Shown here piece after piece: positions 2,035-18,164 of a DNA stretch of 64,000 nt; the first letter of the stretch is position 1; the number at the start of each line of letters is the position of its first letter. Below the pieces are notes generated by a model. It saw nothing but the letters and a program-made list of their open reading frames with translations. It did not search any database and was not told where the DNA came from. The position numbers were made by a program, and so were the translations under genes. Origin of the DNA: Chaetoderma sp. LZ-2023a (Eukaryota > Mollusca > Caudofoveata > Chaetodermatida > Chaetodermatidae); NCBI GenBank assembly GCA_034401795.1, contig CM067359.1, positions 144,156,233-144,220,232 on the forward strand, in the 5' to 3' direction.

Positions 2035-3296
2035 GTGGATGTTGTCAAGGAATCTAGAATTAAGGAGGGCTTTTCTGAGCAAGCAGCCATGTTTATGGCC
2101 AAAGCCAGGAGGTGGTCAACCTCCAGAGCATATAATTATAAAATCAACAGATTTGCAGAGTGGTGCTCAAAAAGATGTATTGATCCAATGGATTCATCTA
2201 TTCAGGTAGTAGCTGATTTCCTCTGTCACCTGTATGATTCCTATAGCCTCAAGCCTAACTCTATTGCTGGTTATAAATCAGCTTTAATGACTGTTATCCC
2301 TTGCTTGGCTAATAGGGGGAGTGATGAAGTAAGTACATTAAATGTATTAATTAAAGGCATGGGCAATCTTCTTCTTCTTCTTCTTCTTTTCGTTCGCTGA
2401 TCATACCGCCAGTCCTGTAAGTGACTATCGACATGATCATAAGCGTTAAGTGCGTGGATCCATGGAATTATTAGAGAGCGCCGTGCGGCCTGGAACCTCC
2501 GTCTTCAGCACTCGAGGTTTCTGTCAGGGTTACCTCACCCTTACCACCTTTAGTCGCCTCTTACGACACGCAGAGGATACGGAAGGTGTATTCTAAGCCC
2601 CACCTACAGGGCAATCTAAGACCAAGGAATCCCCCGTTGATTCCATCTTGGAGTTTATCTCTAGTGCTTCAGGTACTAGGGGATAAGTCTTTTGAACCAC
2701 TTAGTTCCATTTCTATGAAACTGTTAACTCTTAAAACTGTATTTTTAATTGCTGTGGCCTCAGCTAGGCGTAGGAGTGAAATTCATGCCTTATCAGCCGA
2801 GGAAGACCGTTTTGTGGTTACAGGGGAAGGCCTTAAGCTGCTACCTAGGATTAATTTCTTGGCTAAGAATCAGTCTTTGAAATATCCAGGTCAACCTATT
2901 TTTTTGCCAGCTTTAACTAGATATGATCCTAATTCTAAAGCATGGTGTCCCGTCCGGGCGCTGCTCCGGTACAAACAACGTACATCGGAGTGGCGGACGG
3001 ACCAGTCAGCGTTATGGTTGTCATATATTGAACCCCATGGCAGGGCGTCTAAGGACACCATTTCCAGGTGGATTGTAGAATGTATTCAGTTTTGTCATAA
3101 ATCAGCCACCGGTAAGCAGGTTGACATGGCCAAGGCTCACAGTGTCCGCGGCGTAGTGACATCCACTGCCCTATTTAATGGGGTCCCTGTGGATGACATT
3201 ATGTCGGTTGCTCGGTGGCACTGTGAGTCAAGTTTTACAGACCATTATCTCTGTGACACCTCTAATCCTCTCGCCTTGTCGATTTTGAAAAAATAA
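2035..3296 (+). pseudogene. DIRS-type tyrosine recombinase, split by a SINE
   Basis: The N-terminal SAM-like DNA-binding part (2035-2369, with STSRAYNYKINRFAEWCS) and the catalytic part (2618-3296) are separated by a 239-bp insertion plus a duplicated 9-mer. The catalytic part has the first Arg in ASARRRSEIHAL, the H-x-x-R motif as AHSVRG, then ARWHCESSFTDHYL, which supplies the last His/Trp region and the nucleophilic Tyr. Removing the insertion and one copy of the duplication (248 bp) puts both halves back in the same reading frame. The recombinase was therefore open until the SINE arrived. It would join circular element DNA to the target without staggered-cut duplication. Confidence 0.88.
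2370..2608 (-). mobile_element. SINE insertion, minus orientation, with 9-bp target duplication
   Basis: GGGCAATCT occurs directly before (2361-2369) and directly after (2609-2617) this segment. Read on the minus strand the insert ends in a (GAA)n tail, seen as CTTCTTCTT at 2369-2390. Its body holds GTCGTAAGAGGCGACTAAA, a sequence style known to me from molluscan SINEs. The last bases before the tail (CAGCGAACGAAAAGAAGAAG) nearly equal the end of the LINEs at 5.6 and 46.1 kb. No internal ORF is present. A tRNA-like head was not verified. Confidence 0.8.
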
Positions 3297-3794
3297 TTAG
3301 GTGTACATTTTTGATGAGGACTGCATCAGCCTTCACCACTGGGAAGATGATGTCAGCAGCCAAGTTCAACAAAGTCAGTCTTGTTCATGTGTTGTCCATT
3401 GTTGATTGTATTGTCACGTGACCCTTTGTTATTAAAATGGTGATGGTTTGTGTGTTTATGTGGTTCATCGTTGAGAGTATACGAAAATGGAGCTTTTTCG
3501 TCTCTGTCCTATAGTACATAGCACTTGTACGTAGATAGCGTATGGGACATTGACGTCATTCGAGTCTTCCTCCCAGGAAGGAGGGGTGGGAGGGGGGGGG
3601 GGGCGCATATGACATTCGGTCATCTCTCATACATCTGTTTGTGTTATCCGATGGTTTGTCAAATCCTGACTGTGTTTTCACACGGTTTCAGAAGTTTAAG
3701 TGCCTTAAACGCGGAAAAGCGTATAGGGAAGAGCTGGTCTTTTGACCTCACCTCCCTCCCGCTGAATTCCCTGTCGAATTCTGGCAATGTCAGA
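3297..3794 (+). other. D1 3' non-coding region
   Basis: Non-coding tail of D1 between the recombinase stop and the internal complementary region. It holds a poly-G run (about 3591-3602). The ORF that can be drawn across it (3525-3809) has no recognisable domain. Confidence 0.5.
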
Positions 3795-4165
3795 GTATTA
3801 GGGAGGTAAGTATACTCTTGAAGTGAAGTAAACGAAATCTGGGATTTCTTTTTTCACGAGAGAGTTGATACTTACCTCCCTAATACGGACCCTGCCTCTC
3901 CACCCCACAGAGGCTCGGTCTTCAGGCTCTTAATAGTTGCATGTGTGTCAGCCAATAAATTAGTCAGAGGAAGTGCTAATCTGCGCATGCGCGGTGGTGG
4001 GCCTGGCATCCGCCGGACTGCACTCTGACTCCCTGCCCAGTAGGGGCACCTAACTGTTTTTATTCTGAGTGTTTATTGAGTGAAAGCCGATATTTAGCAA
4101 TATCAAAGAGTATTAGGTAGGTAAGTATCAACTCTCTCGTGAAAAAAGAAATCCTAGATTTTGTT
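3795..4165 (+). repeat. D1 internal complementary region and right terminal repeat
   Basis: 3833-3886 and 4110-4163 are inverted copies (about 51 of 54 identical). The palindromic unit begins with GTATTAGGGAGGTAAGTAT at 3795. In DIRS elements the internal complementary region is complementary to both outer termini and guides circle formation. Here the second half pairs with the right end, and the first half (3795-3832) predicts the missing left end. The shared trinucleotide at the junction is AAC/GTT. Confidence 0.75.
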
Positions 4166-4868
4166 TATATTATTTAGAAAGTCATCATCACTGCATTAAT
4201 TACATGGAACTGAAAAAGCTATACCAAAACTGGTAATTCTGAATAAATCTCTGGGAATCAATAGAATACTTAACTCAAAATACGGTTCTGTTCCCATTTA
4301 AGGTTACTGATGCTAAGCATTCTATCTAACAGTACTGTCAGTGTTTCCAAACTATCATATTCTATATATCCATAGCTGGTAATGATCAATGCAATGAATG
4401 TACTGTTTGCTTTTTTACAAAGACTTTAAATTTCCCACCAATTTACCAGGTCACGGTCACTGCTAGTCATGACTATATAGAACCTGTTCTTGCCTTAGTG
4501 CAAGCTATTTCAAGATAATCCAAGGTAGCGTAAGTGAGTCTACAAATTCAAGGACATCCAAGTAGCTTGAATTCTTTTATATCTGACAAAACAAAGTCCT
4601 AGAAAATCCAAGCTAGCTTGAATTCTGTCAAATCAGAAAAGTCCAAGCAAATCCAAGAAGCTTGCACTTTTTCATGATGATATTAAAAAAGTCCTACTAA
4701 ATACCAGCTAGCTTGAATTATGAGAGGGGGGATTTTCAAGAAGTTCAAGCAACTATATAAAGTCCAAGGTAATTCAAGGAAATCCAAGCTGGTATGGGTT
4801 GAATAATTTTTCAATAGCTTGGATATTCAAGAAAATCCAAGGTAATCCAAGTTAACTTGAAATTTATT
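4166..4868. repeat. 1.2-kb dispersed repeat, right part (copy 1)
   Basis: Closely matches 15851-16556 and 17052-17753. It contains many short words such as CTTGAATT, AATCCAAG and CAAGCTAGCTTG and ends in CAAGTTAACTTG followed by AAATTTATTTCACAC. The left part is absent because D1 ends exactly where this segment begins. There is no coding potential. Class unknown. Confidence 0.7.
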
Positions 4869-4941
4869 TCACACAGTGTAGTCTCATTCTTCTATCATCA
4901 GGGGGTTAGGTTGGGTCCAGGTCGGTCTATCTGTCGAGTCA
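4866..4941 (+). pseudogene. sliver of DIRS RNase H sequence
   Basis: About 75 bp align by eye with 6222-6288 of the D2 RNase H fragment: shared blocks include TCACA-GTG-GTCTC, CATCA-GGGGG and CCAGGTCGGTCT. It joins the end of the 1.2-kb repeat to a LINE fragment. It is probably the left flank of an older DIRS copy into which these elements went. Confidence 0.5.
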
Positions 4942-5679
4942 CAGATGGATCAGCCAAAGATGCAATTAGGAGCGGAGGTGCCGGACTGCACATACAGTAT
5001 CCAAACGGACAACATGCGTCAGCTGCAATACCGACAGACAAACACTGCACAAACTACAGAGCTGAAGTCGAAGCACCGGTTCATGCAGCTAATACCATCA
5101 GCAGAACAGCAGACCCTATTGCACAGATTGTCTTTTTATCTGATGCCCGCTCCGTCCTTGAGGCTATCACCAAAGGTAAGCTGCCACAACGTGAAGAAGC
5201 ACTACAAACCATCAAATGCTTTCGGATAGCACTGCAGTGGATCCCTTCACGCTGTGGAGTCCAAGGAAATGAGGAAGCGGACAAGATGGCAAAGGTGGGT
5301 GCAGAAGAGAATCAGACAGAAAACAGGGTTACCCATACAGAGATGAAGACTATCATCAAGTCACTCTATAGAACACCTCAATCAGAAGATGCCTACCATC
5401 ATCTCTCGAGGCCAGAGCAAGTGACCATTTTTCGTCTCAGAACTGGACACAACAGAATAAACCAGACATCGCCCGCTTGTCCTTGTAGATAAGCAGAACA
5501 GACCACAGAGCACATACTTCAATGTTGCAGTACGTATCAGCTGCTGAGAGTAGAGATCTGGCCTTTGTCAACCTCTTCTTGAAAAGCTGTATGGGTCTGT
5601 GGAAGAACTGCAGAAAACCACAGATTTCATCTTGAGAACGTCTCTCCAAGTGTGATACCAGCGATCGAAAAGAAGAAGA
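4942..5679 (+). pseudogene. LINE 3' fragment (copy B): RNase H and C-terminal Cys-rich end
   Basis: 5'-truncated copy of the same non-LTR family as 46137-50036, opposite orientation. It covers the RNase H domain (DGSAKDA, NYRAEVEAPVHA, FLSDARSVLEA, IPSRCGVQGNEEADKMAKV) and the C-terminal C-x-C/H-x-C zinc-like motif (SPACPC, then EHILQCCSTY in another frame). A TAA at 5490-5492 replaces a codon that is open in the 46-kb copy. The 3' end reads CCAGCGATCGAAAAGAAGAAG-like, the family's tail. No clear target duplication was found. It lies between two pieces of DIRS sequence. Confidence 0.85.
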
Positions 5680-5689
5680 CTGATCTTTC

Positions 5690-6460
5690 TTCACTGGTAC
5701 ATGACCCGCAGCTTTCTCTCTCAGGGGAAGTTATTCCCTCCCTTCCCAATGTCCAGACATTGATGTCCACAATTCAAGCTCTCAAGGTAGGCCAATTACT
5801 TATGGCCAGATCCTTTCTCAGATTCATAGGCCTCATGGGTTCAGTAGAAAAAGTGATTCCTTGGGCTCCTTTGATGAGAAGACTCTTCCAGTTTTATCTT
5901 ATGACCGATTGGAATCAGCTTAGATTCTCTGGATCTTCCAATTCTCATCAAGTTCTCTCATGACTCATTGCCGGTTTTGGAAAGACCATCAGTACCTTTT
6001 ATTAGGGGTTCCGCTACATCTTCCAACCCCTCAGGCAATTATCTTCACAGATGCATCCCTGGAGGGGTGGGAAGCCATTTGGGATTCCAGGAAGATTTCG
6101 GGAGCCTGGTCCCTCAGAATCTTCCTACCATGTCAACCTTTTAGAACTGTGGGCTGTTTTCCATGATCCAGTTCATTGGGAACGCTTGATTCTCAGTATG
6201 TCAGTTCTTATCAGATCAGACAATTTCACAGTGGTCTCGCTCATCAATCATCAAGGGGGGACCAGGTCGGTCTCTCTGTCGAGAGTCCATGATCATGCTT
6301 CAGTGGTGCACGTCCCACAACATTTCTCTTCAAGCATCCCATGTCCCAGGCAAACTGATTTTTCTGGTCGACCAGTTATCTCGTCCTTCCAGGATCCCAG
6401 AAACAGAATGGGAGTTAGTAGTATAGCCGGTAGTAGAAAAATACCACCTCCCTGATCACC
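5690..6460 (+). pseudogene. DIRS-like fragment D2: RT-RNase H junction and RNase H
   Basis: Carries the RT connection region (ARSFLRFIGLMGSVEKVIPW), then FTDASLEGWEAIWDS (first RNase H Asp), SDNFTVVSLINHQGGT (third acidic motif) and a degraded C-terminal part. The reading frame changes near 5960, 6060 and 6290, so no protein can be made. Similarity to DIRS ends near 6460-6480, where the virus-like gene block starts. The recombinase at 13755-14390 could be the other part of the same element, but the ~700 bp expected between them is missing. Confidence 0.75.
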
Positions 6461-6479
6461 TCCCTCAACTGGATTTCCA

Positions 6480-6565
6480 TTTAGACGAATGGCCATTGCC
6501 AAGAATATAAAACTCCCATGTGGACCCCACTGGATACATACAAGATACCCAGGCCCTACACCCAT
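6480..6565 (-). pseudogene. truncated minus ORF at left edge of virus-like cluster
   Basis: A short open frame starts at an ATG (6563-6565) just behind the shared start motif and reads left for about 28 codons with a hydrophobic stretch around SFIFLAMAI. It then runs into DIRS-like sequence near 6480. The divergent arrangement with the Cys-rich gene at 6606 copies that of other pairs in the cluster. An in-frame ATG at 6607 exists but would lie within the motif. Function unknown. Confidence 0.3.
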
Positions 6566-6605
6566 CAGCCCAAGGTTTAAGATCTTGATATAGACGTTAT
6601 CAAAC
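6566..6605. promoter_or_regulatory. shared start motif between divergent genes
   Basis: The 40-bp gap holds TTTAAGATC (6576-6584) and a TATAGAC box near 6589-6595, then ATCAAAC directly before the plus-strand ATG at 6606. The same elements recur before the other genes of the cluster. Confidence 0.45.
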
Positions 6606-6890
6606 ATGCATTATAATACATGCAAATGTCTTATGCGAGGTAATCCTTTTCGATGATTAAGGAACTGTGTTGGAGACTATTGTGCGACACACAATGCTCA
6701 GATTCAGAAGGCTGCTGTTGAGCCGAAGCCGTGCAGAGGATGCGGGGCAGGTATTTATACAGACTGTGGACTATGTAAAGCATGCGGGGGTCGTAGACAT
6801 TCCAACAGAATGAACTACAAGAAAGTCTGTGCTAGGAGAAAGTTCAGTTTAGTTATGGAAGAACTTAAACGCGTCATGCCACGCATTTAG
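6606..6890 (+). pseudogene. small Cys-rich, probably zinc-binding protein
   Basis: A single frame of 94 codons runs from ATG 6606 to TAG 6888-6890, broken only by one TGA at codon 17. Cysteines occur at codons 6, 8, 21, 26, 43, 46, 54, 57, 60 and 75. The core CRGCGAGIYTDCGLCKAC followed by a Lys/Arg-rich stretch recalls the first half of a CXXC zinc finger (the DCGxCxxC element), but the spacing differs and the KFGG part is absent. It could be a small DNA- or RNA-binding regulator of the virus-like element. The start is chosen because the shared TTTAA/TATA motif lies directly before it. Similarity to CXXC is my reading, not verified. Confidence 0.5.
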
Positions 6891-7052
6891 TGACAGGCCT
6901 CCACAGGGATATACACCACCCACAGGTACTGATCGCCACACATAATAGGGTCTGAACTCCCATTTAGAGACAGTATTTAAAAACGCCGACCCAGGTATTT
7001 ACATAGTTACCTATGCATACCTGCCAGTCTGCAAACTTCCGTCAAACCTATG
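6891..7052. other. spacer between Cys-rich gene and microsatellite
   Basis: No ORF. A GTATTTAAAAAC string near 6975 could be a further start motif, but the sequence runs into the GTGA array. Confidence 0.3.
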
Positions 7053-7246
7053 TGTGAGTGAGTGAGTGAGTGAGTGTGAGTGAGTGAGTGAGTGAGTGAG
7101 TGAGTGAGTGAGAGTGAGTGAGTGAGTGAGTGAGTGAGTGAGTGAGTGAGTGAGTGAGTGAGTGAGTGAGTGAGTGAGTGAGTGAGTGAGTGAGTGAGGG
7201 TGGGTGGTGCGTGAGCGGGCGGGCGGGTGGGTGTGTGAGTGAGTGT
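7053..7246. repeat. (GTGA)n microsatellite
   Basis: About 190 bp of GTGA/GAGT units with a few interruptions. It directly abuts the 3' side of the minus-strand Penelope-like ORF, as 3' simple repeats often do in such elements. Confidence 0.9.
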
Positions 7247-7247
7247 G

Positions 7248-8174
7248 TTATGCTTTTTTGTTTATTCCGAACAGGTGAATCATTTTGAGTTCTTTGATCC
7301 AGTAGTGTTCTCTGTTTAATCTTAGTTTTTTGTTAACTGTAAAAATTCTTTCAATTGGTCTTATCGTGATGTCTTTCATAGAATGTCTTGGTTGGTTGAA
7401 ATGCCATGAGATTCTCGTGTCTGTTTGGTGTCGGATTGCATGGATATGTTGTGTGAGTCGTTTCCTGAGTGTTTGACTTGTTTCTCCTATGTATTGAGAG
7501 CTGCATTGTTTGCATTCTATGAGGTAAATAATGTTGGTGGTATTGCAGCTCATTTGTGTGTTGATTTTGTAGTCTTTACCAGTGACGTAACTAGTGAATT
7601 TTTCAGCAGTGTTCATGTATTGTTTGCATGTGATGCAATTGCTGTTGTTGCATTGTTGGAGTGTCCCTACTATGTCGTGAGTGTCATCTGGTGTCGGTAC
7701 GATCTTATTGTTAGCATCTGGATTTTTTATTTTAATTAGGCTAGAGTGGACTAGGTGGTCCCTAATGCTTTTATTTTTCTTGAATGCTACTACTGGGTAG
7801 TTGGGAAAAATTGGTGCTAAGATTGGTGAAGACAAGATGTACTTTTCCCAGTAGGTCCGAATGGATTTGCCTATGTGTTCTAATGATGGGTGGTATTGTA
7901 GTATGCAAGCTGGCCTAGGCTGTTTTTGTGTGGGTTGTTTGTAAAGAATGTCTTCTCTCTGTGTGTTCTCGGTTTTTTCTATGATGGCTTTAATTTCTGT
8001 CTCTTTGTATCCCCGGTGGGTGAATGCATCTGTGAGTTCCTGTGTGCGTTGTTTTATTCTAGTGGGATCTGTGATGATGCGTTTGTATCTTAATGCTTGG
8101 CTGTAGATTATGGAATGTTTTGTGCATATGACTTTGTTCCTCCCTTCTGAACCAGGACCGCAACAGCGACACAT
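7248..8174 (-). CDS. Penelope-like element: RT C-terminus and GIY-YIG endonuclease (5'-truncated)
   Basis: An uninterrupted 308-residue frame. Residues ~20-60 (IIYSQALRYKRIITDPTRIK) match the conserved end of Penelope RTs. The C-terminal part holds a GIY-YIG-type nuclease: NIIYLIECKQC, SSQYIGETSQTLRKRLTQH, then RHSMKDITIRPIERI and NREHYWIKEL with the usual Arg, His and Glu. A Cys pair (CNNSNCITC-like, residues ~170-180) precedes it, as in many family members. The catalytic palm of RT is missing, so the piece is a 5'-truncated insertion that cannot move alone. The first ~20 residues (MCRCCGPGSEG) may belong to the junction. It interrupts the virus-like cluster between the Cys-rich gene and the gene at 8210. 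Confidence 0.85.
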   Translation of the reverse strand: MCRCCGPGSEGRNKVICTKHSIIYSQALRYKRIITDPTRIKQRTQELTDAFTHRGYKETEIKAIIEKTENTQREDILYKQPTQKQPRPACILQYHPSLEHIGKSIRTYWEKYILSSPILAPIFPNYPVVAFKKNKSIRDHLVHSSLIKIKNPDANNKIVPTPDDTHDIVGTLQQCNNSNCITCKQYMNTAEKFTSYVTGKDYKINTQMSCNTTNIIYLIECKQCSSQYIGETSQTLRKRLTQHIHAIRHQTDTRISWHFNQPRHSMKDITIRPIERIFTVNKKLRLNREHYWIKELKMIHLFGINKKA

Positions 8175-8209
8175 TCTGATGCACCACGATGCAATGTCAA
8201 CTCTACCCT

Positions 8210-8859
8210 TTAGATAGCTGTGGCTTGGACCTGATGGTGTCCTCGCTCCACATGCACGATCCGCTGTTTGGAACCCGTTTGCTTCAGCTCCTGGTCATTC
8301 TCGTCATGCCAGACATGAAGTCTTGGAGCATTCATCGTCGCATCTGAGAGCTGCTCTGTGTACACCCGGAGAAACAGCCTATCCTGCATGGCAGCCGGAT
8401 TCACGTATGTGTTCTCGAGGAGGGTTAAGAGTGGAACTGCCACAGGCTTCTCGACACCTGCCCGTAGTTCGAATTCTGTGAACCCCACAGTGTAGTACCC
8501 CTTTCCCTTCAGATAGAAGCTTGGGCCACGAGCCAGCAGACCTAGGACTCGGTTTTCATCGTTAACATAGGTGGTGTCCATGGTGCTGTTCCTCTGCACG
8601 ATCTTCCACCTGTTCAGAACCTGCGGGAGCTCTACCGTCTGTTCTATTGTGCTCTGAAGCTTGAACTCGAGTGTCATACTCTTGATCTCGTGGATCTGTG
8701 CCGAGATTACAAAGTCAATGTACTTCCCAGCAGCAGACAACGGGTTCTCTTCGTGTATACTGGGTCGAATGACCATCAGGCAGTCCTTCTGTGGATCAGT
8801 GCGGTGCGATGTCGCGGGTTCAATGGCCCCCAGGCTGGATGTTGCACATACTCCAGCAT
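8210..8859 (-). pseudogene. unknown protein of the virus-like cluster, possibly capsid-type
   Basis: From the motif-linked ATG at 8859 the frame is open for 27 codons. A shift near 8775-8790 then leads into a second open frame of 188 codons (8776-8210). Total about 216 residues. The longer part is rich in beta-type alternation (YIDFVISAQIHEIKSMTLEF, YYTVGFTEFELR, RLFLRVYTEQL), as expected for a jelly-roll fold. Its length would suit a minor capsid protein or the first half of a double jelly-roll capsid protein cut off by the Penelope insertion. I do not recognise it by sequence. The capsid idea rests on composition and on the ATPase nearby. Confidence 0.4.
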
Positions 8860-8898
8860 GTTTAAGGTCTGACTATATAGAGGGGTTAAACGGCTGGC
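8860..8898. promoter_or_regulatory. shared start motif between divergent genes
   Basis: Contains CTATATAG (8873-8880), palindromic, and TTAAAC (8886-8891), which on the minus strand reads GTTTAACCCCTC. ATGs follow on both sides (8859 minus, 8899 plus). A 39-bp bidirectional promoter is the natural reading. Confidence 0.5.
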
Positions 8899-9757
8899 AT
8901 GTTTGGTAAAGTTCTCCAGCAGATTGTCTATAGGCAGCAGGACAAGTCGGCACGACAGCCACAGCGTGCACTGTGACAGGGTCCGAGGACTGCTTCGTGA
9001 CATCAACATTATCCACGAGCGAGCCAAGGTCACACCTCCGTCTGATGCGGAGATACTGGCCACCATAGAGGAAGGAGCGCCAGCTCGTAGTACAAAAGAA
9101 CTCCTGACTCAGAGACTCTACCTGAAGTTTGACAGCACCCAGGGCAGGACACTCGACCTACTTTCTGTGCCCCAAACCAACAGTCCTCTTATTGTAGCGC
9201 TCCAAACGGCGAGGGTCGACCCTAAAGATCTACTAACGGTCGTGAAGTGGGCTGCAGTATTTAGCCTCCATAGCCAGGAAGAGCGAGATATGCTGGATAG
9301 CCTCCGGTCTGGAGCAAATAACTACTTCAGGGAGGAGGTCAGTGCCGCTGTAGCGGAGAGCCATGACACCGGTCATGCAGAAGGTACTCAGGATGGGTTC
9401 ACTGTTGGCCGCAAGGAGGCTGTTGAGCACATCTTCAACGAAGAAGGGCGCAGGAGATTGGCCAGTGATCTGGCAGCATTTCTGAAATTCCCGGATAACT
9501 ACCAGGACTACCTCAAGTCAGATGCTCGTCACGCATGGACAAAGTGGATCTTTCGTGAGAATTTCCAGAAGAAGAGAGCCCTAGACTCTGTCCCTCAATG
9601 GGTAGAGTTTAAGCGACAGGCTTCTGACGAAACTGACGAAGTTCCTCAAGCTTCTGACGAAGTTCCTCAAGCTTCTGACGAAGTTCCTCAAGCATCTGAC
9701 GAAGTAACAGAGACTGCAGACGAAGTAGCGGAGACCGCGCAGCCTTCTGATGAATGA
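8899..9757 (+). pseudogene. unknown acidic-tailed protein of the virus-like cluster
   Basis: The motif-linked ATG at 8899 opens a 25-codon frame ending at a TGA near 8974. A frame shift there joins to the long open frame that ends at 9757 (itself usable from an ATG at 8903). The body is mixed charged (EILATIEEGAPARSTKELLT, VDPKDLLTVVKWAAVFSLHS). The C-terminus has three to four 7-residue repeats of the type VPQASDE encoded by 21-bp DNA repeats (about 9640-9705), then ETADEVAETAQPSDE. No known domain was recognised. It is the only long plus-strand gene of the cluster and converges with the ATPase gene, the stop codons lying 86 bp apart. Structural or scaffold roles are possible but unsupported. 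Confidence 0.45.
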
Positions 9758-9843
9758 AAAAAGTTGCGGCAGCTGCGAGTCTGTCAGCAATGACGCGTAG
9801 AGCAGGCTAGTTTTCTCGCTGGATTCAGCTTGTAGGTGAAGGT

Positions 9844-10679
9844 CTACGCCTTTTCCAGAGATGGCTTGAAGTGTGACAGCTCACCTGTCTCCATGTTGCT
9901 GAAGATGAAGCGTTACAGCTCAGCTGCCCTCTGTACACCTGCAAATAAATTCCTCTTTGATCTCCTTGAGGGTTAGGCTGTCGTATATGGTCTTGAGCAG
10001 GGCACGGCCACAATTGGAGCTGAAGTATAGCAACCTGGCATTGTGGCAGATGTCTAGATCTCGCGGGTGTACTTCTGAAAGGGGATGAAGACAGTTATCT
10101 TTGTGTGCCGGATGCGCCTGGTGATGTTGCTGAGGTAGGTGACTGTCTTCTGGTCCATTGCAGGGTCATCGATAACTAGAACAAGTGGTTCTGTCAGTCA
10201 GGCTGCCAGCAGCTTCTCCATCAGTGCTTGCAGGTTCTGCGTCTTGGTGATTGGGCCATTGTACCATTGATCATTACTGTCAGACACCAGAAGGATGTAT
10301 TGAGAGTGTAAATGTTCGGCCAGCAGAGCCAGCAGCAAGATGGTTTTCCCGTGTCCTGACGGGGCAATGATCAGCACCACCTGGCCAGCATTGGCCAGCC
10401 TACTGGCAAATGGTACAGACATGCGTGCGGAGGATGGTTAGCACTTGGTCGGCTGTAGCCTCGTCTATATCTGGGAGACTAAACGGCAGTACTTCCTGCA
10501 CCAGCTCTTTTGCCTGCAGAGCGGGGAATCCTGCACCTCCGGCGGATACGAAGGATGCGATGGAGGCGTCAAGCATGAAATCCCAGCAGCAGCTGAGAAG
10601 ATAGCGTAGAGGGGGCTGTGTTAGCACCCACAGTGCCTAGTACATCCAGTATCTGTATGATACATGCACAGGAAGCCAT
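9844..10679 (-). pseudogene. probable A32/FtsK-HerA-type DNA-packaging ATPase, broken
   Basis: About 278 codons from a motif-linked ATG (10679) to TAG 9844-9846. Walker A is IIAPSGHGKT in the frame 10422-10198. Walker B, LVLVIDDP, lies in the same frame but after an in-frame TGA at about 10195-10197. A segment resembling the NITRRIRH element follows, comparable to the conserved Arg/Gln region after Walker B in viral packaging ATPases. Frame shifts lie near 10570, 10410 and 10060, and another stop near 9915. The family pumps genomes into preformed capsids, which is why it is the best evidence that the cluster is viral. Identification rests on motif order, spacing and length (220-280 residues is usual). 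Other small P-loop NTPases cannot be excluded. Confidence 0.55.
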
Positions 10680-10700
10680 GACTATCCTGTTGTCTTAAAC
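10680..10700 (-). promoter_or_regulatory. shared start motif before the ATPase gene
   Basis: Minus strand reads GTTTAAGACAACAGGATAGT directly before the ATG at 10679. The GTTTAA and ATAGTC parts match the other start motifs of the cluster. Confidence 0.45.
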
Positions 10701-10805
10701 CTGTGTACACCCATAAGCTTTGACAAATACCTGGGACGAGGTAGTTCAGCACAGGTGTTATGAGGAACATGGTCTGACTAGCCTTCTTGGCGACTTTCAC
10801 TGTAC

Positions 10806-10807
<2 letters not shown>

Positions 10808-10838
<31 letters not shown>
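10808..10838. repeat. (TA)n microsatellite
   Basis: About 30 bp of alternating TA between two minus-strand genes of the virus-like cluster. The surrounding 10700-10850 has no supported gene, although a short hydrophobic minus-strand frame (TMFLITPVLNYLVPG) is present. Confidence 0.85.
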
Positions 10839-10840
<2 letters not shown>

Positions 10841-10850
10841 CATGACAGAA

Positions 10851-11359
10851 TTACTCTCTAATCGGCAAATGAAAGAACCCTATCTTCTTCACCTCTGGTA
10901 GACGGAGGCTGTCGATAGCACCTGCACCTGTTTGGCCATCGACAGTGATACTGCTCAGGCTGAGGGTGCCTATCTTGAGCTTCCCTCCATCCTGGATGAA
11001 TGTGCTCTGGGGTCTCGAGATATCCTTAACCAGGTCCTGTGCATAGGACTCAGCCATAAGCTTGATGGCTCCAGGCTCATCGACTCCGAACATGCCTCGC
11101 ATCGTCGCCCTCCTTGATTCCCATCCCCTTGTATACAGGCTTGGCCTTGTTAATGGCCGATTGTCCTACTGTATCAGTGTTCCCGATGAGATCTCGGGCT
11201 GAGATGGTACCTCGGATCTCCCGCGGGTCTCCCTTCTCATCGAAGTCTAGGAAGGAGATAGGGGCAACAGTGTTCTCTGAACCGAGGCGTGCCTCGCCCA
11301 AGTGAGCAAGATCGCCTAGCTCTGATTTCTCGGTCTGTGAGTGACAGAGTCATAGTCAT
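10851..11359 (-). pseudogene. unknown protein of the virus-like cluster
   Basis: Three frames are required. The motif-linked start (ATG at 11359 or 11353) gives MTLSLTDREIR. The frame 11301-11077 follows, with NTVAPISFLDFDEKGDPREI, and then the frame 11102-10851, with GAIKLMAESYAQDLVKDI and ending KKIGFFHLPIRE. Shifts lie near 11310 and 11090. The combined length is about 170 residues. No family recognised. The continuous coding style across the breaks and its place in a run of co-oriented genes argue for a real, decayed gene. Confidence 0.4.
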
Positions 11360-11378
11360 ATACCTATACGGATTAAAC
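11360..11378 (-). promoter_or_regulatory. shared start motif
   Basis: Minus strand reads GTTTAATCCGTATAGGTATA just before ATG 11359. It has the same order as elsewhere, GTTTAA(C/T)C followed by a TATA string. Confidence 0.45.
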
Positions 11379-11432
11379 CTACTAGTCATATCCCCAGTGA
11401 AATAGTTGGGCATAGGAGGACGACGCAGTCGG

Positions 11433-11606
11433 CTAAAGGAATAGATAGCCGTGCTCCGGGTACTGGCCCTCTCTGCAGGGGCATGCCTTGTGGGCGGTCC
11501 ACCATTCCCGGGCATTGGCAATCCTCAGTCCACGTGCTCGACTATGGGCTACACACCGCCCTCCGGCACGCCATGCCTTATATGATGCAGGGGTCTCGTG
11601 ATCCAT
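11433..11606 (-). pseudogene. small basic protein of the virus-like cluster
   Basis: From the motif-linked ATG at 11606 a 57-codon frame runs to TAG 11433-11435. It is Arg-rich (KAWRAGGRCVAHSRARGLRI). An overlapping frame continues past the stop (RLRRPPMPNYFTGDM), so the true product may have been longer with a shift near 11500. Small basic proteins are common as DNA-condensing or core proteins in DNA viruses, but no specific match can be claimed. Confidence 0.35.
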
Positions 11607-11631
11607 CTCTCACTATTCAGAGGGGTTAAAT
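11607..11631 (-). promoter_or_regulatory. shared start motif
   Basis: Minus strand reads ATTTAACCCCTCTGAATAGT then GAGAG and ATG 11606. Its left part also supplies the stop codon (TAA) of the next gene upstream, so genes and motifs overlap. Confidence 0.45.
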
Positions 11632-12027
11632 GTAGGCGACAATGATCTCAGCCATTGCACTCGTTGCTAGCCCTGGAACCGAGGCCTCAATTAGTGTAAC
11701 ATGTTCACCCATGATTTTGGCGCCAGCAGTGTAGGCGGCACCACTAAGGGCGATCTTTGGGATGGGGTGAGTTATTCCGAGACAGTGCCCGGCCACCCCA
11801 CTCACCACTGTAGCGAGGACAGCCGCAGTGGCGGCAGAAAGATCCTCACTTCCCCCTGTCATCTTCACCACGGCTACATTCGCCACGTTACTAGCGACAT
11901 GGACTGCCAGAGGGTTTTTTGCTTTGGTCAGTAACTTCTGTGTCTTGGTTCTCAGCAGGTTCTCCACCTTCTGAAGACTCGCCTGGCTCTCGGGCAGCTG
12001 CTTCACGATCTGTACCGTTGACGTCAT
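11626..12027 (-). CDS. hydrophobic protein of the virus-like cluster (133 aa)
   Basis: An intact frame with the start set by the shared motif. Residues 1-45 are charged and possibly helical (QASLQKVENLLRTKTQKLL). The remainder is small-residue-rich and hydrophobic, with two likely membrane segments (SAATAAVLATVVSGVAGHCL; IALSGAAYTAGAKIM) and a third hydrophobic end (LATSAMAEIIVAYI). This could be a membrane-associated virion or penton-vertex protein, or a DNA-binding coat component. No family was recognised. It is one of the few genes of the block without a visible lesion. Confidence 0.45.
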   Translation of the reverse strand: MTSTVQIVKQLPESQASLQKVENLLRTKTQKLLTKAKNPLAVHVASNVANVAVVKMTGGSEDLSAATAAVLATVVSGVAGHCLGITHPIPKIALSGAAYTAGAKIMGEHVTLIEASVPGLATSAMAEIIVAYI

Positions 12028-12145
12028 TGTTTAAGCACTGAGTATACAACGCGGTTAAACATCTGTGTCCCCTGTCGAGAAAGCTAATAAGATCTTCCCT
12101 GTCCGCATCTGCCAGGTGGCCGGGTTGGTACTCAGGAATATTCAT
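11891..12145 (-). CDS. small acidic ORF overlapping the hydrophobic gene
   Basis: An 84-codon frame from a motif-linked ATG (12145). Its first ~45 residues (HLADADREDLISFLDRG) look protein-like. The C-terminal half overlaps the 11626-12027 gene and is biased to E, S, G and P. The original protein may have ended earlier, with the present tail produced by a shift. Unknown function. Confidence 0.35.
   Translation of the reverse strand: MNIPEYQPGHLADADREDLISFLDRGHRCLTALYTQCLNNDVNGTDREAAAREPGESSEGGEPAENQDTEVTDQSKKPSGSPCR
12028..12060 (-). promoter_or_regulatory. shared start motif
   Basis: Minus strand reads GTTTAACCGCGTTGTATACT, then CAGTGCTTAAACA directly before ATG 12027. This is the fullest form, with both an upstream GTTTAAC and a second TTAAAC at the start, as also seen before 8859. 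Confidence 0.5.
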
Positions 12146-12159
12146 CTCTCACCTTAAAC
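12146..12159. promoter_or_regulatory. shared start motif between divergent genes
   Basis: Only 14 bp separate the minus ATG at 12145 and the plus ATG at 12160. The gap reads CTCTCACCTTAAAC on plus and GTTTAAGGTGAGAG on minus. Confidence 0.45.
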
Positions 12160-12559
12160 ATGTCCGGGCTCATGCTATGCGAGAAGTACTATGATGTCTT
12201 CCGGAGGGAGTTGAAGGACTACAAGAAGACACCAGATGAGCTCGCTCAGCTCTCCGCTGCTGAGCTGACAGAGGAGTATCGTCGAGCAGCTCCTGCAAGC
12301 TAAAGGTTTCTACAAGGATCAGGAGTATCTGTCAGATGTGTTCCAGCAGTCACCGGACTCAGAGCTGAACAAGGCTCTGCGATACTATTAAGCTGGAAAA
12401 AGATACACTGTCCAACCGTCCAGCCCTTGGATGTGCATGTTGGCAGCGGGTATAGGGGCTGTAGGGCATGCCAAGCTGGTTCAGTGTCTTACTGTGGTCC
12501 CCACTGCTACTGTAGAGAGTCAGGATAGTCTTATAGCTGAAGTGCTAGCGGCGGAGTAG
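12160..12559 (+). pseudogene. unknown plus-strand protein of the virus-like cluster
   Basis: ATG 12160 opens a 47-codon frame (MSGLMLCEKYYDVFRRELKD) ending at TAA 12301. The other frame continues with LLQAKGFYKDQEYLSDVFQQ to TAA 12389-12391. A third short frame (12431-12559, ending SQDSLIAEVLAAE) may be its end. Frame shifts near 12285 and 12395 would join them into about 130 residues. The helical, charged character is continuous across the first break. No family recognised. Confidence 0.35.
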
Positions 12560-13085
12560 GCTGATCCCGAGCGCCATGATAGCTAGGCCTGACACCACAC
12601 GTAGAGCTACCACGGGAAGCAGTGTCGTGTCGACTGGCTGCAGTGTCGGGGCGCCTGGAGCTGCCGTGTCGACTGGCTTCAGTGTCAGGGTCGGAATGCC
12701 TGTATGGCTCGTACTACGCGTAGGTGCATTGATGGCAGTGTTGAAGCCGAAATGGACACCGGGGGAACTCCCCTCGACTATCATGTTATAGCCCCTGACT
12801 TGGAGGTCCTCGATGTTCACGATCATGTTGCTCGGAATCAACCGTAGGTGTGGCGAAATAGCAAAGTCAAGTTTGCGACGGGCCTTCTGCAATCCCTGCT
12901 GGAACTTGGCAATAAGACTACTGGGGTCTGCCACTATGATCAAATCCTCAATGAGACTGATGAACATGGCCTGAACCTCTGGTCCGCTGACACCATCTAT
13001 GGAATACCGCAGCTGGGTCTCGTCCCTCGTCAGCAGTCAGGGGGGGGTATATTTCTGGTTGCATCCGCCACTCTGATTTTGCCAT
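12545..13085 (-). pseudogene. protein with C-terminal membrane anchor
   Basis: A motif-linked ATG at 13085 opens a frame that shifts in a C-tract near 13040-13046. The main frame then runs to 12545 (about 175 residues in all). The middle is amphipathic (AKFQQGLQKARRKLDFAI). It is followed by a Pro/Thr/Val-rich linker with an imperfect repeat (LKPVDTAAPGAPTLQPVDTT) and a C-terminal hydrophobic helix (LPVVALRVVSGLAIMALGIS) ending LLRR. This looks like a tail-anchored membrane protein, perhaps a virion or spike component. Unrecognised family. Confidence 0.4.
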
Positions 13086-13105
13086 AGTATACCTGGAGAT
13101 TAAAC
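13086..13105 (-). promoter_or_regulatory. shared start motif
   Basis: Minus strand reads GTTTAATCTCCAGGTATACT before ATG 13085. The GTTTAA also provides the stop of the gene upstream (13100). Confidence 0.5.
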
Positions 13106-13645
13106 CTGAATCAGAATCTGCTCATGAGTCCTAGAAGGGTACATTTTGGAGAGCCTGGCGAACCGTGCCAGCTTGCTGGTTTCGAGACAGACGTCTCTTA
13201 GACAGAGGTCATCCAGCACTATGTCGGGTGCCAGTAGCTTTCTGAGACGTGACATCTGGAACTTCACCTTATCACCAAGATAGTAGGTCCGCCGCTGGAT
13301 GGCTTTCATGGTCTTACACTTCTGCGCCATCTCCTCTTCCCACTGTATGACATCTGGCTCATCCTCGTCTGAGAAGACATCTAGGTCATCGTCGTCCGTC
13401 AAGACTCCTGCGTCCCACTTACTCTCCTCCAGGAGGGCCTGCCAGTATCAGAAATTTTCACTGTTCCTTCGCCTCCTTGCAAGGCTCGCGTTCTGCTGAT
13501 ACCAGTTCTCCCGCTGTAGTCGCTCTCCTTGTTGTAGTGCGAGCCTCTGTTCGTTTAAGGCCTTTACCTGTACAGGGGTCATGAAGGGGCGAACCTCTTT
13601 CTTCATCATCTCGGCCAAGGGCAGATAATGCTGGTATGATATCAT
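13100..13645 (-). pseudogene. unknown acidic/basic protein of the virus-like cluster
   Basis: ATG 13645 opens 65 codons (YLPLAEMMKKEVRPFMTPVQ, then Gln/Arg-rich). After a shift near 13450 the frame to 13100 carries YWQALLEESKWDAGVLTDDD, an acidic run (DDDDLDVFSDEDEPD) and a basic helical C-terminus (KVKFQMSRLRKLL). Combined length is about 180 residues. Acidic runs of this kind are seen in histone- or capsid-interacting proteins, but no homology is claimed. Confidence 0.4.
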
Positions 13646-13680
13646 GTCAAGTCAATGAGTAATAAGAGTGTAAACTCTAA
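13646..13680. promoter_or_regulatory. weaker shared start motif between divergent genes
   Basis: The minus strand has GTTTACACTCTTATTACTCA, then TTGACTTGAC before ATG 13645. The plus strand has GTGTAAACTCTAA before ATG 13681. This is a diverged form of the motif. Confidence 0.35.
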
Positions 13681-13752
13681 ATGGACGTCCGATATCCCAT
13701 CCTTGCTGGCATATATGTTAATGGAGGGGCTGTCAAACAGGTGATTTACCCC
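13681..13752 (+). pseudogene. truncated first exon/ORF at right edge of virus-like cluster
   Basis: ATG 13681 opens a frame (MDVRYPILAGIYVNGG) that stays open until it meets a C-tract at about 13750-13761 and then DIRS recombinase sequence. It marks the point where the virus-like DNA is cut off. The rest of this gene is not in the window. Confidence 0.4.
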
Positions 13753-13754
13753 CC

Positions 13755-14390
13755 CCCCCTTTAAGAAACCCATTCCTACTTGGACCCTTTCACTTGTTCT
13801 ACAGGTTCTAGCGGAAAAACTCTTTGAACCTTTGGGTTCTGTTTGCTTGAAACATCTTACGCTTAAAGCAGTATTCCTGTTAGCAGTAGCTTCAGCCAGC
13901 TGTTGTTCTGAAATTCAGCTCTCTGCTGAATTGGATAGGTTTCAGATTACTGGGAATAGTATTATTCTGTCCTAGGGCAGAATTTCTGTCCGAAACTCAG
14001 TTAAAATCTTGGGTAAACCTATTATAATTCATAACCTTTCTTCCCTTTCACCAGATGATTCTGTCTGGTGCCCAGTTAGGGCCCTTAATGTGTATAAGCT
14101 TAGCACTGAATCCAAACGATCCGACAATAGACATCTTTGGGTTACATTTGCTGAATGTGTGGATCGTCCTGCCTCCTTAACAACTATTTCTCGTTGGATA
14201 GTTGATACCATTAAAATTTGCCATGAATTGAGCTCCCCTGGGGACAATGCTATAGTGAGTGTTAAGGCCCATGATGTTAGGGGCCTTACCACCTCTTGCG
14301 CCCTTTTTAATGGATTTTCTCTAGATGACATTATGCAAGTTGCTAACTAGAAATCAGAAAATACCTTTATTAATTTCTATCTTAAAGGTT
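13755..14390 (+). pseudogene. DIRS tyrosine recombinase, catalytic part (D2)
   Basis: Follows the D1 recombinase from WTLSLVLQVL through TLKAVFLLAVASA to FINFYL. The first catalytic Arg is lost: D1 has SARRRSEIH and this copy has SASCCSEIQ. H-x-x-R is kept (KAHDVRGLT) and the final Tyr is present, but stops lie near 13972 and 14348. The DNA-binding half is missing. Its left border is the C-tract at the end of the virus-like block. Confidence 0.8.
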
Positions 14391-14840
14391 CTGGACCCTC
14401 TTCCTTTTTCTTTAAGAACATTCATAAGGTAGCTTCAGGGACCATGACTCATATTCCTTCTTCATCATCATCATCTTCTCGTCCTTCATCATCTTCATTT
14501 TTAATAGTTATATTAGGGATGAGTGCGAGTTCATTACTTCTTTCTCATGTGTGTGTTTCACTTCTATCATATCATCACTTATTTATTCTTCTCCTTTTGC
14601 ATGATCTTTCTCTTCCTTGTCTTCTTGGGGTTGTTTATGATCCCGCTTCTTATCTTGCCCTTTTTTCTTCTGTTTCTTTCTATTAAGATGCTTTGAGAGG
14701 AATTCTGGGGAATTACTATCTTTATAGTATCTTCCTCTACTTGTTATTACTAACTTCGTACTCGTCTCTATTTTTACATCAATGTTGAGCAAAATTTGCC
14801 TCCCTCCGGGCTTTGTTCAGTGTTGAAATCTGTATTTGAG
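14391..14840. other. D2 3' non-coding region
   Basis: Pyrimidine-rich, low-complexity (runs of TCATCATC and TCTTCTT, for example 14457-14500). The ORFs drawn here are compositional and no domain is visible. Confidence 0.4.
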
Positions 14841-14945
14841 CAATAGTAATGCAAGGAGGTAGGTTGTAATGTAGTAATAATGACCAGACGACCCGGGCGG
14901 TCTGGTCTTATGTTTTACTAATTACATATATCTACCTTACAGCCC
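14841..14945 (+). repeat. D2 internal complementary region
   Basis: 14882-14940 is the reverse complement of the right-end sequence at about 18104-18164 (shared core GACCAGACGACCCGG, then TATGTTTTACTAATTACATA). 14841-14866 repeats the terminal-repeat sequence found at 18087-18112 in direct orientation. This is the DIRS signature. Confidence 0.65.
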
Positions 14946-15186
14946 ATCTCAAGCCTCCTCTCTGTCGAATCTTTTTTTGGGGTGGGGGATTGAGGCTTCA
15001 TTGCAATGGTCATATCTTGTTAGTTTGGTTATACTCAACTTAACATATTCATTATATCATTCAGCCCTTGGGTATACCTGGATATGTCAGTCAGATTTTG
15101 ACATATTTGGGCATTTCTGAAAGAACTTTCCTGTCATATAATGTAGAATATTTAGGTTGGTTTTTAATTTCAGCAAGCTGATCCTG

Positions 15187-15321
15187 GCTTTTCCAAGTTA
15201 TTAAAAGCTTGGATTAGCTGGTTTTATTCAAGCTCCACAGAACTTGGATGTTCATGAATATCCAAGTTCTGTGGAGCTTGAATAAACCAGCTAATCCAAG
15301 CTTTTAATAACTTGGAAAAGC
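15187..15321. repeat. long near-perfect hairpin
   Basis: Arms 15187-15249 and 15260-15321 are reverse complements with a single 1-base gap. The loop is GTTCATGAAT. A transcript would fold into a ~62-bp stem. It lies at the left edge of the tandem 1.2-kb repeats. Confidence 0.9.
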
Positions 15322-16556
15322 TTGAATTAGCTTGCTGGTATTGGCCACATAAAATTCAAGATAATTCAAGAAACTCCAAAAAAGGCCTAGTTAAAGTAAA
15401 ATTCAAGAAAATCCGAGGTAACTTGAACATTCAAGATAATCCAGGCTAGCTTGCCGGTATTGGCCACTTAAAATCCAAGAATATTCCAGCTACCTTGAAC
15501 ATTCAAGAAAATCCAAGCTAGCTTGCACGTTCAAGAAAATCCAAGCCTGCTTGAAGATTCAAGAAAATCCCACCTAGATTGGATCTTATTCCAGAAAGTT
15601 CCAGATATCTAGAACTTCAAGAAAATCCCAGCTAATCCTAGCTTTTAAAATAGGTTAGCCATTAACATAAAATGTATGCACGTACACATAAATGCTGCCA
15701 CACAGATTATATATAAATATGTATGCTTAAAAACCAAAATCACCTTCATGGTTACTCAATAACAAACACAATTTCAGCCAGACATTAGCAATGTATGAAT
15801 TTCTGATTGATTTGTCTGTTATTCTTATAGACATAGATTGTTAATGTGCCATATTATTTAGAAAGTCATCATCACTGCATTAATTACATAGAACCGAAAA
15901 AGCTATACCAAAACTGGTAATTCTGAATAAATCTCTGGAAATCAATAGAATACATACCTCAAAATACAGTTCTGTTTCCATTTAAGGTTACTGATGCTAA
16001 GCGTTCTATCTAAAAGTACTGTCAGTGTTTCCAAACTATCATTCTATATATCCATAGCTGGTAATGATCAATGCAATGAATGTACAGTTTGCTTTTTTAC
16101 AAAGACTTTAAATTTCCCAACAATTTACCAGGTCACGGTCACCTCTAGTCATGACTATACAGAACCTGTTCTTGCCTTAGTGCAAGCTATTTCAAGATAA
16201 TCCAAGGTAGCGTAAGTGAGTCTACAAATTCAAGGATATCCAAGTCTCTTGAATTCTTTTATGTCTGACAAAACAAAGTCCTAGAAAATCCAAGCTAGCT
16301 TGAATTCTGTCAAATCAGAAAAGTCCAAGCAAATCCAAGAAGCTTGCACTTTTTCATGATGATATTCAAAAAGTCCTAGAAAATCCCAGCTAGCTTGAAT
16401 TAAGAGAGGGGGGATTTTCAAGATGTTCAAGCAACTATATAAAGTCCAAGCTAATTCAAGGAAATCCAAGCTGGTATGGGTTGAATAATTTTCCAGTAGT
16501 TTGGATATTCAAGAAAATCCAAGCTAATCCAAGTTAACTTGAAATTTATTTCACAC
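15322..16556. repeat. 1.2-kb repeat, copy 2
   Basis: Nearly the same as 16567-17753 (unit spacing about 1201 bp) and, in its right part, as 4166-4868. It has a left part rich in CAAGAAAATCCAAGC/TTGGATT words, a central unique part (about 15640-16150) and a right part ending CAAGTTAACTTG...TTTCACAC. No coding potential. A 68-codon ORF (15994-16200) is preserved only because the copies are similar. Confidence 0.8.
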
Positions 16557-16566
16557 GTGGGGAAGC

Positions 16567-17753
16567 TCTTAAATAACGTGGAAAAGCTTGGATTAGCTTG
16601 CTGGTATTGGCTACATAAAATTCAAGATAATTCAAGAAAGGCCTAGTTAAAGTAAAATCCAAGATAATCCAAGCTAGTTTGCCGGTATTGGCCACTTAAA
16701 ATCCAAGAATATTCCAGCTAGCTTGAACATTCAAGAAAATCCAAGCCTGCTTGAACGTTCAAGAAAATCCAACTTAGCTTGGATTTTATTCCAGAAAGTT
16801 CCAGCTATCTAGAACTTCAAGAAAATCACAGCTAATCCTAGTTTTTGAAATAGGTTAGCCAATAACATAACATGTTTGCACGTGTACACAAACGCTGCCA
16901 CACAGATTATATATAAATATGTATGCTTAAAGACCAAAATCACCGTCATGGTTACTCAATAACAAATACAATTTCAGCCAGACATTAGCAATGTATGAAT
17001 TTCTGACTGATTTGTCTGTTATTCTTATAGACATAGATTGTTAATGTGCCATATTATTTAGAAAGTCATCATCACTGCATTAATTACATAGAACTGAAAA
17101 AGCTATACCAAAACTGGTAATTCTGAATAAATCTCTGGAAATCAATAGAATACATACCTCAAAATACAGGTCTGTTTCCATTTAAGGTTACTGATGCTAA
17201 GCATTCTATCTAACAGTACTGTCAGTGTTTCCAAACTATCATTCTATATATCCATAGCTGGTAATGATCAATGCAATAAATCTACAGTTTGCTTTTTTAC
17301 AGACTTTTTAAATTTCCCACCAATTTACCAGGTCACGGTCACCTCTAGTCATGACTATACAGAACCTGTTCTTGCCTTAGTGTAAGCTATTTCAAGATAA
17401 TCTAAGGTAGCGTAAGTGAGTCTACAAATTCAAGGATATCCAAGTCTCTTGAATTCTTTTATGTCTGACGAAACAAAGTTCTAGAAAATCCAAGCTAGCT
17501 TGAATTCTGTCAAATCAGAAAAGTCCAAGCAAATCCAAGAAGCTTGCACTTTTTCATGATGATATTTAAAAGGTCCTAGAAAGTCCCAGCTAGCTTGAAT
17601 TCTGAGAGATTTTCAAGAAGTTCAAACAATTATATAAAGTCCAAGCTAATTCAAGGTAATCCAAGCTGGTATGGCTTGAGTAATTTTCCAATAGCTTGGA
17701 TATTCAAGAAAATACAAGCTAATCCAAGTTAACTTGAAATTTATTTCACACGG
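16567..17753. repeat. 1.2-kb repeat, copy 3
   Basis: Tandem to copy 2, with only about 10 bp between them. The high similarity indicates a recent segmental duplication or back-to-back insertion. Both copies lie within the right terminal region of D2. Confidence 0.8.
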
Positions 17754-18164
17754 GCATATGCCTCTTCATGGATCTGCTTAAAGCTGGATTATATGACTGG
17801 ATTCGTCAAAGGAATGAAGTCTCGGTTGCTACAACATGGCCATGTGATAGCTATCAGCCAATGAGGTTGTCATTGTGCTTAATGACCTACTCAGTGGCTA
17901 TGGGTATTGGCTTAACCCTCTTCTTGCCTCATACTGAGATATAGCATTCATGCGAATAACTATGGATCTCATCATTAGGGAGAGTATGGAGATTCCTGAA
18001 GAAGCCTTCAGTCACTCTGTAACCACACTACAAAGCAAACATTGGCTGTAAAAAGTTCATCCTACTACGCTTCCCTTCAGAGAAGGAAAGAGCAATAGTA
18101 ATGCAAGGAGGTAGGTATATGTAATTAGTAAAACATAAAACCAGACCCTCCGGGTCGTCTGGTC
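17754..18164 (+). repeat. D2 right terminal region
   Basis: Resumes DIRS terminal sequence. GAGCAATAGTAATGCAAGGA at 18087 repeats 14841. The end at about 18164 is inferred from complementarity with the internal region. Confidence 0.55.

Follow-up and report, generated by a model that had tools for sequence, protein, structure and literature searches.

The Polintons, also called Mavericks, are seen as a root of many eukaryotic DNA viruses, and one capsid design is expected in common among them. That a lineage with a Polinton-type polymerase can have another capsid is exemplified by the Bidnaviridae, in which this polymerase occurs together with the capsid of a parvovirus. PMC11071308, in its accessible text, mentions bidnavirid polymerases. 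A survey of 72 Polintons, as far as its accessible text goes, reported 46 elements with full-length and 13 with split capsid genes, together more than 80%, and nine capsid-less elements that also lacked the ATPase and the protease (PMC4028283). Vertebrate Mavericks, in the accessible part of their description, have terminal inverted repeats (TIRs), short target duplications and (AGT)2 as one printed end motif; most copies are degraded, and intact ones carry eight (or seven) conserved open reading frames (ORFs) (PMC8097293). Here, we analyze a stretch of 64,000 nucleotides (the window) from the caudofoveate mollusc Chaetoderma sp. LZ-2023a (assembly GCA_034401795.1, contig CM067359.1, positions 144,156,233 to 144,220,232 of the forward strand). 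In this window, a compact two-strand gene cluster at ~6417-13749 is one copy of a dispersed repeat, and very probably a dead, cut-off copy of a many-copy, self-synthesising element of the Polinton/Maverick type. As a many-copy and partly young animal lineage that has genes for replication and insertion, and in which neither a capsid nor a protease is recognisable, the family is a place to test the loss or swap of capsid design, and its many near-identical copies make its unfamiliar proteins and gene-start module testable.

The family was traced through the genome (2.44 Gb, 2753 contigs) with a plus-strand ORF of 294 amino acids (aa), hereafter gene P. This search returned 139 matches; 133 places were scored among 9,891 first-look candidates, and contigs C1 to C17 are all represented. 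Ten of these places, picked for match length and mostly open frames, were fetched together with both 10-kb sides, and every one of them matches parts of 8138-13749, with 6-10 copies covering any sampled point. Identity to the window ranges from 84.5 to 91.2% across all loci compared (L002-L008, L029 and L030 included), a divergence of ~9-16% between the window copy and the others. An earlier note on this DNA, made from its letters alone, had described a compact two-strand cluster at 6480-13752 that stands out from its flanks. The cluster is real, and parts of it recur in 10 of 10 fetched copies; its guanine-plus-cytosine (GC) content is 0.520 over 8138-13749, higher than in the left flank (0.428, 4000-6415) and the right flank (0.367, 13750-20000), and the extent given is close to the true one, with the left TIR starting at 6417 and the copy ending at 13749. 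The same note had named host genes or a bacterium as the origin that would overturn its view. Such an origin can practically be dismissed, as copies occur on every one of contigs C1 to C17 within a single genome of eukaryotic size. In the same genome, the haemocyanin domain PF14830, which we take to be molluscan, is matched 44 times (best expectation value, E, 5.6e-40), and 14 control genomes yield no match.

The assignment to Polintons is carried by relatives of the window copy, in which the polymerase and integrase genes sit to the left of the shared part. One relative encodes a family B DNA polymerase (L023:5292-6842; PF03175, E 1e-9, above the cut-off). The stretches YDANALYL and DTDSAY, presumably motifs A and C, are present in the polymerase of relatives, and the N-terminal piece has a sub-threshold Rho_N/HeH-like match alone (1.4e-4). 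The integrase at L015:6845-7924 matches rve at E 6.6e-6, below the cut-off. It aligns to its counterpart in a canonical Polinton of this genome (L031/L032, G000:C1:8876600-8896999): BLASTP gives 4e-9 and 21% identity across 180 columns, in which D, D and E line up, and hhalign gives a probability of 93% and E 3.6e-7 across 258 columns. This canonical element has polymerase, integrase, ATPase, probable capsid and protease ORFs on one strand; its profile scores are 1.1e-5 for the Pox_A32 ATPase, 7e-13 for rve and 9.4e-4, just under the cut-off, for the protease PF00770. A 416-aa protein of L031, which has no Pfam match, is assumed to be its major capsid protein. The window family is like L031 in its family B polymerase, homologous RVE integrase and P-loop ATPase, but its genes lie on two strands and neither the protease nor the capsid is recognised. 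In the ATPase of the family a P-loop and an IDD stretch are visible, and four of seven copies match Pox_A32 with E no higher than 0.01, short of the Pfam cut-off. From these components, the polymerase would copy the linear element, with protein priming predicted from its family; the integrase would insert it, duplicating 5-6 bp of target; and the ATPase might package the DNA, if particles form. As a separate observation, the three highest-scoring PF03175 matches genome-wide fall on other polymerase genes (G000:C5:55426827, C3:27900868 and C6:57016287), perhaps of further Polinton families.

The ends of the element support the same assignment. Paired TIRs of 233-301 aligned bp occur in 4 of the 10 first-fetched copies, and pairs of 412-483 bp in all five places picked by inverted pairs of a small Cys-rich ORF; of these five, C12:77.9 Mb and C12:78.2 Mb are one duplicated insertion with the same flanks, and the C2 pair is unreadable at its ends. 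Element ends start with (A)AGTAGT in 4 of the 5 pairs (three independent insertions), one side reading AGTCGT. By eye, the outer 5-mers agree at both ends in all three independent readable pairs (GCAAA, TGAAC and TCAAA), and six matching bp are reached in two of the three only with one base shared with the element; in older copies the flanking duplications are blurred. From the coordinates of the termini, the element spans ~12-17 kb. In the window, the left TIR end (AGTAGTATAGCCGG..., 6417-6532, no strand) matches the TIR start over 35-37 bp at 97-100% in four of five left ends (the duplicated insertion accounts for two) and continues inward at 88-95% in all five left ends compared. As for that duplicated insertion, the same Polinton is found at G000:C12 77.88 Mb and 78.20 Mb in opposite orientation, and its flanks are swapped; the pair is either a local inverted duplication or a duplicate made in assembly.

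With polymerase, integrase, TIRs and ATPase in relatives, the earlier suggestion of a Polinton-type element holds, as does the remark that only part of the element is present, the polymerase and integrase being absent from the window and present in relatives. Its other suggestion, an integrated animal DNA virus, was not borne out in the sense of an infectious virus, no capsid gene having been recognised. A remnant of such a virus, integrated by chance, would have compact virus-like genes with common start motifs as seen here; however, the family has 133 scored places, TIRs and flanks that match, and its relatives encode an integrase, all of which makes this origin very improbable.

The window copy itself is damaged: at least four genes have changed frame, an internal deletion lies at 13022, and the end is lost at 13749. 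Comparison with fetched copies places the deletion junction at 13021-13024 (no strand), and the missing DNA amounts to ~1.3-1.4 kb relative to L014, L016, L020, L024 and L026 and ~1.0 kb relative to L012. Because the element picks up at 8138 within the gene of a beta-rich protein, the polymerase, the integrase and two small genes are gone. Both flanks resemble one ORF that lies beside another copy: the right flank (13715-14386) aligns to its C-terminal part (E 2e-51, 48%) and the left flank (6007-6075) to an earlier part (61%, 23 residues, E 0.005). This ORF has weak Phage_int_SAM matches (0.008) and presumably belongs to a DIRS-type retroelement; a Pfam scan of the two flank pieces found nothing significant. 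Since the middle of the DIRS-like ORF is missing, the two flanks do not form a clean empty site. The copy would now lie between two parts of a DIRS-like retroelement, its polymerase-integrase side having been lost, with a GIY-YIG remnant in that place, and its right end lost as well. At L009/L010, a Polinton copy is flanked by an inverted pair of stretches, 91% identical to each other, and one of the pair contains the DIRS-like ORF matched by the window flanks. Direct repeats at 4167-4658 and 15851-16340 (94-97%, ~11.7 kb apart) enclose the whole nest and are perhaps repeats of a larger retroelement.

Copies of different ages are present in the family. A search with the beta-rich protein of one copy gave 123 scored matches among 8,980 candidates, all at 91% identity or more, and 89 of the 123 (the query copy counted) have no internal stop, so a younger set of copies exists. 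The Cys-rich ORF has 150 scored matches among 675 candidates, at 84-96% identity apart from itself. By eye, at least 13 of them sit 4.9-7.7 kb upstream of a same-strand gene P match, and five inverted pairs, 10-14 kb apart, lie at both element ends; the Cys-rich gene is therefore part of each TIR in a subfamily. Its protein matches Pfam zf-CXXC at E 0.004, below the cut-off, and the ORF was not found in loci L002-L032. Ratios of non-synonymous to synonymous substitution rates (dN/dS) were estimated on native open frames from pairs that are non-independent and chosen for open frames, with the hydrophobic, beta-rich and tail-anchored genes left out because the window stretches used for them contain a stop codon. 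They are 0.63 for gene P (55 pairs), 0.55 for a small gene, 0.52 for the ATPase and 0.69 for the gene overlapping it (10 pairs each), and 0.39 for the integrase (6 pairs), which suggests that selection acts on active copies. The right side of the young copy L029 (~2273-2691) holds a repeat array and an N-terminal polymerase piece joined to the MPIV gene (named, like others below, from its first residues), an arrangement that looks like an exchange or a lengthening of the terminal repeat.

Set beside the vertebrate Mavericks as described in the accessible text of PMC8097293, the window family is alike in its (AGT)2 ends, TIRs, short target duplications and mostly degraded copies. It differs in having ~16 mostly unfamiliar small genes besides polymerase and integrase, as well as repeat arrays near the ends and the subfamily Cys-rich gene in the TIR. 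Searches of Pfam, PHROGs, PDB sequences and IMG/VR returned nothing significant for most of the proteins tried there, which makes an undescribed lineage, as proposed in the earlier note, plausible and not proved. Nothing similar was found in the open literature, subscription journals and Repbase being outside that search.

Upstream of many family genes stand a TTTAA/GTTTAAAC-like box and, near the ATG, a TATA stretch, and this module points both ways between divergent gene pairs. For example, between the beta-rich gene and gene P it occupies 8868-8890 on both strands (TATATAGAGGGGTTAAAC on plus, TATATAGTCAGACCTTAAACATG on minus), and the module of the hydrophobic protein lies at 12041-12059 (GTATAC...TTAAACAATG in the minus-strand reading). 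A strict pattern with both boxes within 60 bases is found at 7 of 17 gene starts and at 3 of 452 other ATGs (p = 2e-9, which is optimistic, the motif having been picked after it was seen in the same family). The TTTAAA-type box alone precedes 10 of 17 starts versus 15 of 452 other ATGs, and TATA alone 13 of 17 versus 51 of 452. Judged by its position and recurrence in the sequence, the module may be a shared promoter, two-way between divergent pairs, by which the ~16 small genes on both strands could be switched on together.

Several results weigh against the Polinton assignment or its details. The window copy has neither polymerase nor integrase of its own. Compared by BLASTP, the family polymerase and the C-terminal piece of the L031 polymerase did not align (E 0.9), and one large polymerase frame of the young copy L030 (3531-5084) has no Pfam match. 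For the ATPase, the best Pox_A32 score (E 0.0018) is below the cut-off and generic AAA families score better; compared with the L031 ATPase, no significant alignment was obtained (BLASTP 6.1, hhalign probability 0.5%). A scripted, rigid 6-mer comparison of flanks reached 4 of 6 at most, and 5 bp are read where 6 bp are published. The strict gene-start module is missing from 10 of 17 gene starts. As to selection, the MPIV gene has a dN/dS of 0.87 (6 pairs), and the value of 0.15 for the polymerase (13 pairs) mixes pieces of different subfamilies. Finally, no adenain-type protease was detected in the family ORFs scanned (PF00770, E up to 1) with a library that does detect it in L031, and no capsid protein was recognised in the family with Pfam, PHROGs, PDB sequences or hhalign against L031.

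How is the missing capsid to be explained if the Polinton assignment is right? The morphogenesis genes would be either very diverged from the canonical Polinton ones or different from them. We lean towards an ordinary Polinton whose double-jelly-roll major capsid, penton and protease are present and have diverged past recognition, the beta-rich protein, for example, being a penton or short capsid. The family keeps a P-loop ATPase and compact small genes with a common start module, capsid genes are recognisable, intact or split, in most Polintons of the survey cited above, and the tail-anchored protein has an open frame of 385 aa, near the length of the 416-aa probable capsid protein of L031. 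AlphaFold models are too poor for fold use (mean predicted local distance difference test score, pLDDT, 27.9 for the beta-rich and 30.4 for the tail-anchored protein). The very low-confidence model of the beta-rich protein has strands in its C-terminal half, in keeping with divergence, whereas that of the tail-anchored protein, likewise of low confidence, shows helices. Neither protein aligned with the capsid-like protein of L031 (hhalign probability below 1%, with shallow alignments whose effective number of sequences, Neff, is ~1.2-1.3), and the beta-rich protein gave no hhalign alignment with the penton-like ORF of L031 either.

A second explanation, which we hold to be unlikely though clearly worth weighing, is a Polinton lineage whose jelly-roll virion module has been lost or replaced, leaving it capsid-less or with an unrelated capsid. 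No capsid or protease gene was recognised in the family, and the four unfamiliar genes tested have dN/dS of 0.55-0.87 among copies; however, a missing match is weak evidence with alignments so shallow. The capsid-less Polintons of the survey, as far as its text is accessible, share with the family an unrecognised major capsid gene, but nine of them lack the ATPase and protease as well, whereas the window family keeps a possible packaging ATPase and many unfamiliar genes (PMC4028283). A family that keeps the ATPase with no recognisable capsid or protease would be unusual. In contrast to Bidnaviridae, no parvovirus-like capsid match was seen, and the window family is integrated, with an integrase in relatives. 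The fullest version of the replacement idea is a lineage that exchanged its jelly-roll module for unrelated morphogenesis genes while keeping polymerase, integrase and ATPase, uses a two-way promoter and has a zinc-finger-like gene in each TIR of a subfamily; as a whole, it seems improbable to us.

The searches behind these judgements differ in weight. The beta-rich protein had nothing significant in Pfam, PDB or PHROGs, and PDB sequence searches were blank for the polymerase, the tail-anchored protein, the beta-rich protein and protein A4, with one chance-level match (E 0.04) for A5. A genome-wide search with the protease family gave one match, elsewhere, and missed the protease of L031 itself, hence it is insensitive. 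Scans of viral contigs with the polymerase, the tail-anchored and beta-rich proteins, the ATPase and the integrase returned no relative; a control with the capsid-like protein of the canonical element was also blank, so these scans have little weight. With fold predictions that failed (pLDDT below 31), the absence of capsid and protease is weak evidence, and the tests do not separate diverged from absent capsid genes.

The remaining features are given from left to right. Next to the left TIR end, the Cys-rich ORF (6657-6890, plus) is matched over 77 aa; other copies often keep it open over 98 aa. A single unit of a subterminal tandem repeat follows (6884-6973, no strand), 73-97% identical to repeats near the ends of several copies, for example an array in L027 at ~2893-3950. 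A (GTGA)n simple repeat (7054-7245, no strand) lies outside the element proper. At 7248-8137 (minus), a GIY-YIG ORF (PF01541, E 5.7e-8) adjoins the cut element end at 8138; it has no counterpart in the ten fetched copies, which pick up at 8138, and is probably the remnant of a retroelement, of Penelope type as we assume. The minus-strand ORF 7248-8294 as an element gene was therefore ruled out, and its first 51-56 codons merely read through antisense Polinton DNA. Among the genes assigned to the cluster in the earlier note, this ORF is foreign; the Cys-rich ORF, the ATPase, the tail-anchored protein and the hydrophobic protein do belong to the family.

From 8138 onward, the gene order begins with the beta-rich gene (8141-8862, minus), whose 3' part is lost at 8138 and whose frame is broken near 8840. 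It aligns by tblastn at 71% over 310 query residues, part of which precede the ATG; the protein has ~355 aa from its ATG in L030, and young copies often have a 458-aa open frame. Gene P (8899-9757, plus) encodes ~285 aa with an acidic SDEVPQA repeat tail and is broken near 8973. An intron at its start was rejected by eye as the cause, the frame being open from its ATG in L029. The P-loop ATPase gene (9790-10437, minus), weakly A32-like, is interrupted in the window copy (tblastn 73%), and its start is overlapped by a gene of ~92 aa (10403-10685, minus); this gene, its frame broken here, recurs in 9 of 10 copies. Next comes extra DNA that includes a (TA)n run (10701-10858, no strand): matches of most copies stop at 10700 and restart at 10859, and 10701-10810 resembles polymerase-side DNA of two copies (73-74%).

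Further to the right are a gene of ~167 aa (10857-11385, minus; frame broken at ~11110), a small basic ORF (11433-11606) and the gene of the hydrophobic protein of 133 aa (11626-12027, minus), which is open here and 88% identical to L029 over its full length. A small acidic ORF (MNIPEY..., 11891-12145, minus; 79% identity) precedes a plus-strand gene (12154-12541) that has 158 aa from its ATG in L029 and is broken here at ~12275, with ~62-75 bp lost. Of the tail-anchored protein, the C-terminal part alone is left (12545-13021, minus; 86% over 88 codons), its 385-aa frame being open in L014. Around the deletion, the N-terminal stub of a hydrophobic gene (MAKSEW..., 12993-13088, minus) is 63% identical over 28 residues; this gene has sub-threshold matches to its hydrophobic stretch alone (RTX 0.0011), from which no function was read. 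A gene with an acidic middle (13112-13648, minus; 70% over 185 residues) and a fragment of the next gene (MPIV..., 13672-13749, minus), where the element is cut off, complete the copy. Outside it, on the left, the ORF at 4857-5492 matches RNase H (PF00075, 3.3e-10) and is presumably of non-LTR (non-long-terminal-repeat) retroelement type.

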